This document shows, piece by piece, positions 26,836-39,273 of a DNA stretch of 40,864 bases. This DNA comes from a virus. Both the position numbers and the translations under genes were made by a program. The stretch's first letter is position 1; the number at the start of each line of letters is the position of its first letter. Below the pieces are notes generated by a model, which worked only from the letters and a program-made list of their open reading frames with translations, ran no database searches and had not been told where the DNA came from. The stretch covers positions 1 to 40,864 of the IMG/VR virus record IMGVR_UViG_3300024263_000002. One strand, 5' to 3'.

Positions 26836-27139
26836 GGGGAAAAGGGTGGTCGTAGGCGACATCTATGATCGTATTTCCTACATCTTGGAAGTGTGGCCGG
26901 AAACCCAGGAGAACTACAAGGCTCTTCAATTCCGCTACTGGATGGAATTCGACGGGTTGCGGGAGGTTCTACGCTCCGGCGATCCATCCCGATTCGAGCA
27001 TTGGTATCGCTTCAGGGCCAAGTCCGCCAAGACGCTGTTGCAGAGATGCCAAGAGGTCCAGAACAGACGGCCTGACCTTGAACCTGCGGAGGTAAGGGAG
27101 AAACGGTTGAAGCAAAGTAGGCGAGGCCCTGTCGGATGA
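26819..27139 (+). CDS. Early-region protein of unknown function, 106 aa
   Basis: MQLTLEGKRVVVGDIYDRIS, then helical with many aromatic residues (FRYWMEFDGLREVL, FEHWYRFRAKSAKTLLQRC) and a basic tail. Starts inside the end of the winged-helix gene (ATG 26819, or GTG 26813) and ends ATGA into the radical SAM gene. Not recognised. Confidence 0.5.
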   Translation: MQLTLEGKRVVVGDIYDRISYILEVWPETQENYKALQFRYWMEFDGLREVLRSGDPSRFEHWYRFRAKSAKTLLQRCQEVQNRRPDLEPAEVREKRLKQSRRGPVG

Positions 27140-27876
27140 AGCGCAAGACCCTCATCGCCAAATGCAACTATCCCTGGGGGGACTTTTCCCCAACCCATGC
27201 CATCAATCATTACCTGGGTTGCGCTTTCAACTGCCCTTATTGTTGGGCGAGGGATGTATGGTGGAAGCGAATGGGCCGAAATCTGACCAAGATCTGGGGG
27301 GTGCCGGAAGATTTCGAGTGGCGGATGGCCTTGCCCTTTGAAGTTTCGCGCCTAGATTTCTTGCGGGAATTGAACCGGCTCCCGACGGATTCACGGATTC
27401 TGCTATGTTCCACAACCGATCCCTACCAATATATAGACGAAAAGGTATCAATGACGCGACGTCTTCTATTATGGCTTGGAGCGAAGGAAATACAGACAAT
27501 CATTTTGACGAAATCCGCCCTACGCCCAGAACGAGATTTCGATGTTCTTAAGGGTATGGATGCGTGGTTCGGGATAACTATGGAATACCCCTTCTCCCAT
27601 TCCAATTGGCACTATGCCAGGATGGCCATGCTCCATGAGGCTCACAGACAAGGTATCAAGACATTCGTAAGCCTGGAACCTTGGCTTCCGGGTGTAAATG
27701 CCAAAGATATTGTGCAGGACATGGCTTCTTTCACCAACCACTGGATCGTCGGCCCCCTGAACTATAAAGGCGTGGATACCAACTTCTATCGAGAGAACCT
27801 GCCGGGGCTCATTGAACTTTTTGAGCGGATGGGAACGTCGTATTTCATCAAGCCTGATTTGATGCGGTATCTTTAA
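27136..27876 (+). CDS. Radical SAM protein (phage Gp37/Gp68-like)
   Basis: 246 residues. Iron-sulfur motif CAFNCPYC (CxxxCxxC) about residue 33-40, preceded by THAINHYLGC. Later ILLCSTTDPYQYIDEKV, IILTKSALRPERDFDV and VSLEPWLPGVNAKDI fit a SAM-radical barrel of the spore-photoproduct-lyase/DUF5131 type. Substrate unknown; roles in DNA repair or base modification are possible. Coupled to the gene before it. Confidence 0.82.
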   Translation: MKRKTLIAKCNYPWGDFSPTHAINHYLGCAFNCPYCWARDVWWKRMGRNLTKIWGVPEDFEWRMALPFEVSRLDFLRELNRLPTDSRILLCSTTDPYQYIDEKVSMTRRLLLWLGAKEIQTIILTKSALRPERDFDVLKGMDAWFGITMEYPFSHSNWHYARMAMLHEAHRQGIKTFVSLEPWLPGVNAKDIVQDMASFTNHWIVGPLNYKGVDTNFYRENLPGLIELFERMGTSYFIKPDLMRYL

Positions 27877-28806: not shown

Positions 28807-30048
28807 ATGAAACCTACATTTGGCTCTGCTTTTGCCGGGATAGGTGGCTTTGAACTAGGGCTTGAAAGGGCTGGATGGGAGTGCAGATGGCAGATAGAGA
28901 ACGACAAGGCTTGCATCAAGATTCTGGAGAAACATTGGCCTAATGTAAGGAGATATAGCGATGTTGAAGAAGTCAATCCAAAGAAACTCGAAGCAGTTGA
29001 CCTTCTTTGTGGGGGGTTCCCCTGCCAAGACCTCTCCGTTGCTGGCAAGCGTGGCGGACTATCTGGGGAGCGAAGCGGCCTTTTCTGGGAACTGGTCAGG
29101 CTGGCTAGGGGAGTCCGACCCAGATGGCTCCTTATCGAGAACGTCCCTGGTTTCCTGTCTTCGCACGAGGGCGAAGACTTCGCACTCGCAATCGAAACGC
29201 TTGCCGAATGCGGGTATGGTCTGGCGTGGAGAGTGCTGGACAGCCAGTATTTCGGAGTTCCCCAACGACGTCGTAGAGTCTTCATTGTCGGACATCTTGG
29301 AGCGATGTGTCCACCTGAAATACTCTTTGAGTCCGAAGGCGGCGAGGGGCATATTGCGGAGGGCGGAAAAGCGGGGGAGGACATTGCCTACTGTCTTAGA
29401 GAACGCCCTTCGCACAGTGGCGACAAGGGGGACGGGGGAGTCAACACAACCCTTATCGCAACCCTCAGAAGTGGCGGAGCAGGAGGAATCCCGTCAAGCA
29501 GGGGAGAACACATCATCGCAGGATTCTCCGCAGGGCAATCAGCAGGAGCAGGGTCAATCGCCTACGAAGAGGAACGAAGTCCAACGCTTAAAGGAGAGCC
29601 AAGCGGGACAAACCGAGTTCCTTCAATCATCTACCATAGCAAGGGTCAAGACTTCGACCTCAGAGAGTACGAAGGAATCTGCCCCGCAGTTACAGAGCGA
29701 TGGGGAACGGGAGGATGCAATGTTCCCTATGTCGGTGAGGAGGCTGATTCCAAGGGAGTGCGAGAGGCTTCAAGGGTTCCCCGACGGGTGGACTTGTCTG
29801 TGCCGCTAGCATTTGATTGGCGGAGTGGAGGCGATGTTAGACTGAACATCAGCGAAAAACAGACAAGTGCATTACACTCACCACAAGCACCCGCTGTGAT
29901 GACCAAGGAAGAAGCAATAGAGGAGTTTGCAAGAAGACTAAAACATTGTTTGGTTTGCCCCGACAGTCCCCGATACAGAGCATTAGGCAACGCTGTAACT
30001 GTTCAAGTGGCAGAGTGGATAGGCAGAAGGATATTGGAGTTCGGATGA
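28807..30048 (+). CDS. C5 cytosine DNA methyltransferase (Dcm-type)
   Basis: 413 residues. Motif I FAGIGGFELGLE (about 9-20), motif IV GGFPCQDLSVAG with catalytic Cys72, motif VI ENVPG (Glu111), motif VIII QRRRRVFIVG (153-162) and motif X YRALGNAVTVQVAEWIGRRI (390-409). The variable part between holds stretches usual in phage enzymes (GFSAGQSAGAGSIAYEEE). Motif IX is missing in this frame; it is encoded in the +1 frame at 29744-29800. Activity is therefore doubtful. May protect phage DNA from host restriction. Confidence 0.88.
   Translation: MKPTFGSAFAGIGGFELGLERAGWECRWQIENDKACIKILEKHWPNVRRYSDVEEVNPKKLEAVDLLCGGFPCQDLSVAGKRGGLSGERSGLFWELVRLARGVRPRWLLIENVPGFLSSHEGEDFALAIETLAECGYGLAWRVLDSQYFGVPQRRRRVFIVGHLGAMCPPEILFESEGGEGHIAEGGKAGEDIAYCLRERPSHSGDKGDGGVNTTLIATLRSGGAGGIPSSRGEHIIAGFSAGQSAGAGSIAYEEERSPTLKGEPSGTNRVPSIIYHSKGQDFDLREYEGICPAVTERWGTGGCNVPYVGEEADSKGVREASRVPRRVDLSVPLAFDWRSGGDVRLNISEKQTSALHSPQAPAVMTKEEAIEEFARRLKHCLVCPDSPRYRALGNAVTVQVAEWIGRRILEFG
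28961..29809 (+). CDS. Overprinted gene inside the methyltransferase, +1 frame, 282 aa
   Basis: Open for 849 bases in the +1 frame, with its own AAGGAG (28947-28952) 8 bases before ATG. Contains GGSPAKTSPLLASVADYLGS, GECWTASISEFPNDVVESSL, YSLSPKAARGILRRAEKRGR and, at residues 262-280, RRLIPRECERLQGFPDGWT, which is C5 methyltransferase motif IX. The middle (about 155-250) is Gln/Ser/Glu-rich. The ILRRAEKRG-type stretch recalls phage proteins seen beside cytosine methylases, from memory only. Either a real dual-coding gene or an unusual long shadow plus an indel. Confidence 0.5.
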   Translation: MLKKSIQRNSKQLTFFVGGSPAKTSPLLASVADYLGSEAAFSGNWSGWLGESDPDGSLSRTSLVSCLRTRAKTSHSQSKRLPNAGMVWRGECWTASISEFPNDVVESSLSDILERCVHLKYSLSPKAARGILRRAEKRGRTLPTVLENALRTVATRGTGESTQPLSQPSEVAEQEESRQAGENTSSQDSPQGNQQEQGQSPTKRNEVQRLKESQAGQTEFLQSSTIARVKTSTSESTKESAPQLQSDGEREDAMFPMSVRRLIPRECERLQGFPDGWTCLCR

Positions 30049-37212: not shown

Positions 37213-39273
37213 ATGATAGCCGACATCATCAAAGAGATGCGAAGGCAACTGGTGGGGGAGCGTAAACAGGTGACCGGCCTCCCCATTGGATGGGGGCCAT
37301 CCACCAGCACTCCGAAGGTGGACTTCGCCACGCTGTCGAAGGACGGGTACGAGAAGAACGCCTTGATCTTCGCCTGCATCAACGAGTTGGCATCATCCGC
37401 TTCCGAGGCAAAGTGCATCGTGGAGAAGCGGAACCGCAAGGGTGAGTGGGAAGCGTGGCCTCAAAGCCGCCTGCAAAGGCTCCTTGACAACCCCAACCCC
37501 CTGATGTCGGCTTACGAGTTCTGGTTCCACGTCATTCTCTATCAATCCTTGGCTGGCAACTGCCTTTTCGAGAAGGAGCCAAGCGGGGCGGGCTTGACGG
37601 TGGGCCTCTGGTTGATGCGACCCGATTATGTGTCCATCAAGGCCATAGAAGTCAAGGCTGGAGAGCGTACGAGGAAGAAGATCGAGTTTTACAAGTGGCA
37701 ACCCCCGGGGGGCGGCCAGGTGAACTTCGTGCCCGAAAAGATCATCCATTTCAAGCATCCCCACCCCAGGGACGAACTATGGGGCTTCCCCCCGTTGGCC
37801 GCCGCGGCCAGGGCGGGTGACACCGACAACTTCGCCACCGATTTCGTCCAGGCGTTCTTCAAGAACGCCGCCGTGCCGTTCGGGATACTCAAGATCGGCG
37901 GATTCGTCGATGAGGCCATGCAGAAGGAAGCGAAACAGCGGTTGCAACAACTTTATGGAGTAGTCAGCGGGCAGGCGAGATGGTTTGAGCCGATGATATT
38001 GGGCGAAGGCAGCGAATGGATCGAGATGGGCAAGTCGATGACCGATATGGATTTCCCGCAGTTGCGGAGGATCACTGAGACGCGGATATGCGAGGTCTTC
38101 CAAGTGCCGCCGGGTTTGGTGGGGGCATTCGTCTCCGTGGAAAGGGGCGCATTGTCTAGTTCCGACCTGAAAGAAGAGCGCAAAACATTTTGGCTTGACA
38201 AACTCATGCCCACCTATAAGAAGCACGCCGACACGCTCAACCGGCAATTGACCCCGGAGTTTGGCAAGGACGTTCGGATCAGGTTCGATTTCTCGGCGGT
38301 GAAGGCTCTCCAAGAAGAACAAACCGCTATATTCACTAGGGCAAACGAGAGCATATCGGCTGGATGGTTGACGGTAAATGAAGCGCGGAGCATGGCGGGC
38401 TTGGAGGAAATTGGCCCTGCTGGCGATGTATTCTTACGGCCCATGATGCTCTTACCAGTGCAGACCGAGGAGAAGCCGACACCCCCGGGGGCCAAGGCTT
38501 ATCTGAGGACAAAGAGCGCCCATATCCCCGAACAATGGAAGGAGCGGTGGGCCAAGGGGATAGACCTTGTGGCCACCGCCTGGGAAAGCGTATTCCGAAA
38601 GACGGCGGCAGGTCTCTTCCGCAAGGAGAAGGCTGAACTATTGAAGATTCTAAGAAAGGAAGGGAAGGCAACCAAGCAGGGCGACCCATTCGCAACATTC
38701 TTAGAAGAAGGGGCGGCTTACCTCATGGTTGACAAAGACGCTTGGGCGGAGGAGTTCACCCCCCTCTTCTCGGGGCTCGTGGCGGCCCAGGCCGACAACA
38801 TCCTGGGGGCTTACGGGATTTCCTTCGACATCAACCGCCCGGAGGTTCAGGAATTCCTGAAGGGCTACACCTACGAGTTTGCCAAGGGCATTGAGGGGGT
38901 GAGCGAAAAAGGCTTGCGGGAATTGGTGGCGCAAGCCCAGGCCGAGGGGTGGTCAGTCCCAACGCTTCGCAAGGCCATAGAGGAGGACACAAAGCACTAC
39001 TACGACAAGGTGCGGTCGAAACGGATCGCCCGGACGGAAACGATAAGGTCTTCCAATGCGGGGACGGAGGAAGCATGGAAGCAGGCGGGCATTGAGAAGA
39101 AGCAATGGTACGCCACCCTTGACGGGCGACAATGCGCCGAATGCGAAGCCCAGTACGAGTATTCGAAGGCGAACCCGACCATAATGGGGGGCGACTTCCA
39201 AGCGGGTATTCCCTATCCGCCCCTGCACCCTAATTGCCGATGCACGATCTTGGCCTATTTTGAGGAAGGATGA
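37213..39273 (+). CDS. Portal-MuF fusion, copy 2
   Basis: 686 residues, collinear with the first copy. Portal part as there (FKHPHPRDELWGFPPL) and a MuF end with DGRQCAECEAQYEYSK and HPNCRC. The copies differ most after residue about 300: the first has VGSYAGSIATTYANY, this one VGAFVSVERGALSSSD. Follows the YkgJ-like gene directly, without the 54-aa gene of copy 1. Confidence 0.93.
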   Translation: MIADIIKEMRRQLVGERKQVTGLPIGWGPSTSTPKVDFATLSKDGYEKNALIFACINELASSASEAKCIVEKRNRKGEWEAWPQSRLQRLLDNPNPLMSAYEFWFHVILYQSLAGNCLFEKEPSGAGLTVGLWLMRPDYVSIKAIEVKAGERTRKKIEFYKWQPPGGGQVNFVPEKIIHFKHPHPRDELWGFPPLAAAARAGDTDNFATDFVQAFFKNAAVPFGILKIGGFVDEAMQKEAKQRLQQLYGVVSGQARWFEPMILGEGSEWIEMGKSMTDMDFPQLRRITETRICEVFQVPPGLVGAFVSVERGALSSSDLKEERKTFWLDKLMPTYKKHADTLNRQLTPEFGKDVRIRFDFSAVKALQEEQTAIFTRANESISAGWLTVNEARSMAGLEEIGPAGDVFLRPMMLLPVQTEEKPTPPGAKAYLRTKSAHIPEQWKERWAKGIDLVATAWESVFRKTAAGLFRKEKAELLKILRKEGKATKQGDPFATFLEEGAAYLMVDKDAWAEEFTPLFSGLVAAQADNILGAYGISFDINRPEVQEFLKGYTYEFAKGIEGVSEKGLRELVAQAQAEGWSVPTLRKAIEEDTKHYYDKVRSKRIARTETIRSSNAGTEEAWKQAGIEKKQWYATLDGRQCAECEAQYEYSKANPTIMGGDFQAGIPYPPLHPNCRCTILAYFEEG

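Follow-up and report, generated by a model that had tools for sequence, protein, structure and literature searches.

Some cytosine C5 methyltransferases work as two polypeptides. In M.EcoHK31I, a working methylase of this kind, the large polypeptide carries motifs I-VIII, the TRD and motif X, and the small polypeptide carries motif IX (PMC3404938). M.EaeI is likewise a two-polypeptide C5 methylase, and the small gene of M.EcoHK31I is reportedly nested within the large gene in another reading frame. In M.AquI, too, two polypeptides form one enzyme, with motifs IX and X both located in the small subunit (PMC3404938). A tether to a sliding clamp has been described for the cytosine methylase DNMT1, which is attached to PCNA, and the consensus for binding the bacterial beta-clamp is QL(S/D)LF (PMC9690074). 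In the open-access literature, the only literature searched, we found no earlier description of overlapping methylase frames, of an overlap in P1 dmt or of clamp-bound phage methylases, and a term search of the GeneTack frame-transition paper revealed no DNA cytosine methylase.

Results

A +1 open reading frame nested in a phage methyltransferase gene

The window, by which we mean the whole stretch of DNA that was analyzed, comprises the 40,864 bases of an IMG/VR virus record. Among its genes are those for the portal, the major head protein, the tape measure and the terminase. Two portal genes are present (416-2626 and 37213-39273), sharing 71% amino acid identity, and the first 4.2 kb of the window recur in its last 4 kb with 75-91% identity, the final 119 bases being exact. 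Possibly, the window represents a circular or terminally redundant phage that was assembled from two strains. A radical SAM protein, weakly similar to DUF5131, is encoded by the phage near the methylase gene (27136-27876). The main open reading frame (ORF) at this locus matched the methylase profile PF00145 with E=3.1e-58 over residues 5-164 and retains motifs I-VIII and X, but no motif IX was found in the main frame of 28807-30048. The features of the locus are as follows.

28807..30048, plus strand: main-frame C5 methyltransferase ORF (alpha), 413 aa
28831-28851, plus strand: motif I, main frame
28947..28952, plus strand: Shine-Dalgarno sequence AAGGAG of the +1 ORF, 8-nt spacer to the ATG at 28961
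28961..29809, plus strand: nested +1 ORF (beta), ATG start, 282 codons, entirely within the methylase ORF
28994..29008, plus strand: QLTFF, +1 residues 12-16, resembling the bacterial beta-clamp-binding pentapeptide QL(S/D)LF
29011-29037, plus strand: motif IV, main frame
29137-29151, plus strand: motif VI, main frame
29263-29292, plus strand: motif VIII, main frame
29282..29422, plus strand: +1 core domain SLSDILE...ILRRAEKRGRTLP...ALRTVA, delimited by column analysis and predicted to be helical
29735..29794, plus strand: methylase motif IX in the +1 frame, VRRLIPRECERLQGFPDGWT, followed by four residues to the ORF end
29971-30003, plus strand: motif X, main frame

The +1 product consists of a disordered N-terminal tail, a helical core, a linker and motif IX. 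The core, which can also be written SLSDILE...YSLSPKAARGILRRAEKRGRTLPTVLENAL, sits over motif VIII in the +1 frame. Positions 191-294 of the PF00145 profile matched +1 residues 173-278 (E=1.2e-6). The original prediction, made from the sequence alone, had placed an 849-base +1 frame wholly inside the methyltransferase, with its own AAGGAG at correct spacing, and both claims held. It had missed that the +1 product ends in motif IX, and hence is related to the methylase, as well as the clamp-like N-terminus.

The +1 frame is open beyond chance and carries its own start signals

We compared the +1 frame with 5000 synonymous-codon shuffles of the main ORF, a null that preserves codon usage without controlling for dinucleotide bias. 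The longest +1 open run of the shuffles averaged 84 codons (95th percentile 127), and none of the 5000 reached 286 codons or left 28961-29806 open. The +1 residues that had been quoted as non-random are present, and the non-randomness of the frame is borne out by this result. Comparison of related genes revealed the same behavior. All 151 nonredundant genes had a +1 frame without stops over 46 or more upstream codons, against 46.7 expected (z 21), while the +2 frame was open over the same stretch in 22 genes, which is at expectation (19.3). The core region itself was open in +1 in 55/55 survey genes, compared to 17.8 expected. Furthermore, an ATG with a Shine-Dalgarno sequence occurred within the permitted stretch in 99 of the 151 genes, where 24.2 were expected, an approximately fourfold enrichment. 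A ribosomal frameshift would need no upstream openness. Since the upstream frame was open in every gene and start signals were enriched, we infer, without translation data, that a gene with a start of its own occupies the +1 frame.

Codon positions show selection on the +1 protein

In 108 nonredundant genes, the core +1 residues L, S, A, G, I, L, R, R, A, R, L, P, L and L were near-invariant. At these sites the entropy of main-frame third positions was close to zero and that of main-frame first positions was mostly 1.3-1.9 bits, the main-frame residues being loose. Just upstream, over motif VIII, the ordinary pattern was found, with fixed main-frame residues and variable main-frame third positions. 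The reversal of the codon positions begins at SLSDILE. Since these 108 loci had been picked by the +1 peptide, we repeated the test on loci picked solely by the methylase N-terminus. In the 55 nonredundant genes obtained in this way, mean entropy over the core was 1.44, 0.86 and 0.66 for main-frame positions 1, 2 and 3, and 0.71, 0.41 and 1.14 over motif VIII. Amino-acid entropy of the core was 1.12 in the +1 frame versus 2.09 in the main frame. Four-fold degenerate sites differed between related genes at a rate of about 0.55 over motifs I-IV; over 29260-29403 the values were 0.17, 0.12, 0.13 and 0.10, and they returned to 0.68 after 29440. These data demonstrate, at the level of sequence, dual coding, protein-level selection on the +1 product, start signals of its own and a split of motif IX. 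That the +1 ORF is a selected protein-coding gene is nearly certain; its translation is inferred, in the absence of translation data.

The +1 core accompanies a class of phage C5 methylases

A tblastn search with the +1 product against 50,697 phage records returned 147 with a match, and with a core profile IMG/VR yielded at least 584 stretches and GTDB genomes 519. In almost every retained locus a methylase ORF had the core in +1 across its motif VIII (QRRRR). The exceptions were L165, which is decayed, and FP_Toutatis and L072, in which frame changes have joined the core to the reading frame of the methylase N-terminus. No stand-alone core outside a methylase was found in 160 core-selected loci, save for the decayed L165. 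In a first survey by methylase N-terminus, the core was in +1 in 36/36 core-bearing loci, and no locus of that survey that lacked the core had the motif VIII form FGVPQRRRR. In a second, Firmicutes-like survey, the core was in +1 in 71/71 scorable loci, this set being closely related. We conclude that the +1 core accompanies essentially all phage and prophage C5 methylases of the FGVPQRRRR class that were surveyed, P1 dmt included. Carriers span phages and prophages of Firmicutes, Proteobacteria, Acidobacteria, Actinobacteria and others. In P1 dmt (NC_005856), the 157-codon +1 ORF begins with the ATG at 66728, GGAG lying just upstream, and ends with the stop at 67201; the reference record carries dmt as the sole annotation at this site.

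Several loci deviate in their architecture. In L165, from a Rhizobium MAG, the N-terminus of the decayed methylase is swapped for unrelated sequence and the core persists. In Mycobacterium phage Thibault (L332, 61538-63339) an HNH endonuclease gene apparently splits the methylase, and the hypothetical protein gp104, as which the +1 core is annotated, is apparently the core of this HNH-split methylase. Two Omega-cluster mycobacteriophages (L001 and L009) have a split methylase, with motifs IX and X on a separate short ORF downstream of the core.

The original prediction had further proposed a selected dual-coding pair across phage methylases, recognizable by ILRRAEKRG, and this is supported. 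The search that it suggested for relatives of the +1 product showed these to be near-universal in +1 over one phage C5 methylase class, and the expected openness in homologues was met upstream in 151/151 genes. Synonymous constraint, expected over 28961-29420, proved strong over the core, being strongest at 29260-29403 rather than spread over the whole range. Frequent stops or normal synonymous rates would have identified a chance frame; the opposite was obtained.

Motif IX of the window lies in the +1 frame

Motif IX in the +1 frame together with motif X in the main frame was found in five nonredundant sequences, namely the window, L011, L017, L021 and L064, and both frames can be aligned among them. 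Since four other sequences share the split and both frames are alignable, it is not a sequencing accident. The motif distribution resembles that of M.EcoHK31I, and motif IX is missing from the main frame; a two-subunit methylase is therefore the most likely reading, and beta of the window probably is a second methylase subunit that supplies motif IX. This conclusion is inferred from sequence, and assembly and activity are untested. In most relatives (180/275 classified loci of the FGVPQRRRR class) motif IX sits in the main frame, and consequently the +1 protein is dispensable for motif IX there. In these relatives it must have another role, for which clamp docking or assembly are conceivable candidates, again by inference. 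A further arrangement occurs in L128 and L155, which were scored, and in L159, which was judged by eye: here the +1 ORF continues through the variable region and holds motifs IX and X, similar to M.AquI.

A second nested family is found in loci without the core, in which motif VIII is mostly of the GAPHxRDRVWIVAYP type. We examined 36 of these GAPH loci. Their main frames nearly always contain motif X, and with one doubtful exception none of the 36 contains a recognizable motif IX. An IX-like stretch, e.g., LNPxFVEWLMGFPxGWT, was present in the nested +1 ORF in 36/36. This ORF was open from -60 to +100 in 28/36 loci (1.5 expected), and a strict QLxLF peptide occurred in it in 12/36 (0.11 expected). 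GAPH +1 ORFs often begin with M..QLTLFAxDxPAKTS and end in LNPxFVEWLMGFPxGWTDL (L175, L180, L188, L199, L216, L217, L225, L236 and others). Because the GAPH class splits off motif IX likewise, the M.EcoHK31I layout is probably common among phages.

Predicted structure and N-terminal peptide of the +1 product

AlphaFold2 predicted that the first 100 residues are disordered and are followed by a compact helical core, in whose main helices most pLDDT values are 95-98. The core had no structural match in the PDB (Foldseek) and no family in Pfam, and sequence searches of the PDB returned no functional relative of the +1 product. In a Foldseek search of BFVD the significant match was a Mycobacterium phage Thibault protein, with a phage methylase next in order, again without a functional relative. 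PHROG_16143 ("DNA methyltransferase", 139 aa) matched 53/68 +1 products, and no other family was found to cover the core in most members. Its label apparently derives from the overlapped methylase, and the overlapping frame is not marked.

A peptide of the form Q[LM][SDTN][LMFI][FW] was found near the +1 N-terminus in 31/151 genes, compared to 0.3 expected. It usually lies few codons past the start, over several different main-frame contexts and in the tail that is predicted to be disordered. The motif patterns were picked after viewing the data, and the excess is about hundredfold. The version in the window, QLTFF, departs from QL(S/D)LF, and the peptide is missing from most low-GC Firmicutes genes. 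In the absence of binding data, we regard these observations as suggestive only, and the balance leans slightly against clamp docking by the +1 product.

Discussion

Several alternative explanations have to be weighed against an overprinted subunit gene. Long +1 frames are frequent in GC-rich methylase genes, and the frame could have arisen by chance; this is all but excluded by the shuffles, none of which reproduced it, and contradicted by all comparative tests. A conserved RNA or DNA element, rather than a protein, could alone yield synonymous constraint. However, the third positions of the +1 codons vary freely (mostly 1.3-1.9 bits), and variation is much lower at positions 1 and 2. A translated +1 frame would behave in this way, and practically no room is left for this explanation. 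A programmed +1 ribosomal frameshift after motif VIII would give the methylase an alternative C-terminus. In favor of it, the switch in constraint falls exactly after motif VIII, and the methylase N-terminus and the core share one frame in FP_Toutatis and L072. Against it stand the upstream +1 frame, open in all 151 genes without any need in a frameshift model, and the fourfold enrichment of starts with a Shine-Dalgarno sequence, and we consider a frameshift very unlikely.

Two further objections concern the relation to the methylase. Motif IX might have been put in the wrong frame by sequencing or assembly frameshifts or by decay of the methylase. Broken copies do occur in some phages, such as L165 and Thibault with its HNH gene, and the ends of the window show strain-mixed assembly. 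Reading motif IX in the main frame would need two compensating frame changes. Yet, four other independent contigs have the identical arrangement with both frames conserved, and the GAPH class shows it likewise in 36/36 loci, so that error or decay can be almost entirely dismissed. The +1 ORF might instead encode an independent overprinted protein, e.g., a regulator or a counter-defence factor, to which motif IX was fused late in the window. The methylase of most relatives indeed has all motifs in its main frame, and the +1 core does not resemble methylases. On the other hand, the core occurred together with a methylase gene in all of the 160 core-collected loci, bar the decayed L165, and an IX-like stretch is present in every member of the nested GAPH family as it is in the +1 ORF of the window. 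We therefore hold an independent protein to be unlikely.

The best overall explanation, which we consider likely, is an overprinted gene that contributes to a two-subunit methylase, with docking on a clamp as its least certain part; translation, assembly, clamp docking and purpose are all inferred. According to this model, the +1 ORF would be translated from its own ribosome-binding site. Alpha would provide motifs I-VIII, which serve SAM binding and catalysis, together with the variable region and motif X, and beta would supply motif IX, so that both would be subunits of one enzyme in the window phage. The helical domain of beta, present in essentially all relatives of the class, may bind alpha or DNA, which is a guess given that no fold or family match was found. 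The N-terminal peptide of beta would dock on the host DnaN clamp, and the phage genome would be methylated during replication and thereby escape restriction. A bolder reading, for which the evidence falls a little short, is that the widespread overprinted family is a clamp-docking accessory subunit of the methylase and that the form in the window has in addition captured motif IX.

If the model is true, these overlapping genes would be among the broadest in dsDNA phages, and one of them would be unannotated in the dmt gene of P1, a laboratory workhorse. Gene callers would overlook a partner that nearly always accompanies a common class of methylases, the M.EcoHK31I split would be the usual condition in a second large class, and phage methylation would perhaps be coupled to replication via the sliding clamp.

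The bolder reading likens the family, by analogy, to a bacterial and overprinted counterpart of the PCNA tether of DNMT1. Like the PCNA-binding motif of DNMT1, a QLxLF tail would connect a methylase to the clamp; unlike in DNMT1, the peptide would be located on a separate overprinted subunit and the partner would be the bacterial clamp. With M.AquI, the window shares the proposed division of a C5 methylase into two polypeptides. However, its motif X is in the main frame and not together with motif IX, and the AquI-type criterion is not met. The closest match is to M.EcoHK31I in the distribution of motifs, with a large polypeptide that has motifs I-VIII and X without IX and a smaller polypeptide that has motif IX. 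The window departs from that layout in that beta adds the SLSDILE/ILRRAEKRG core, which is proper to the FGVPQRRRR class, and most members of this class, unlike M.EcoHK31I, keep motif IX in the main frame.
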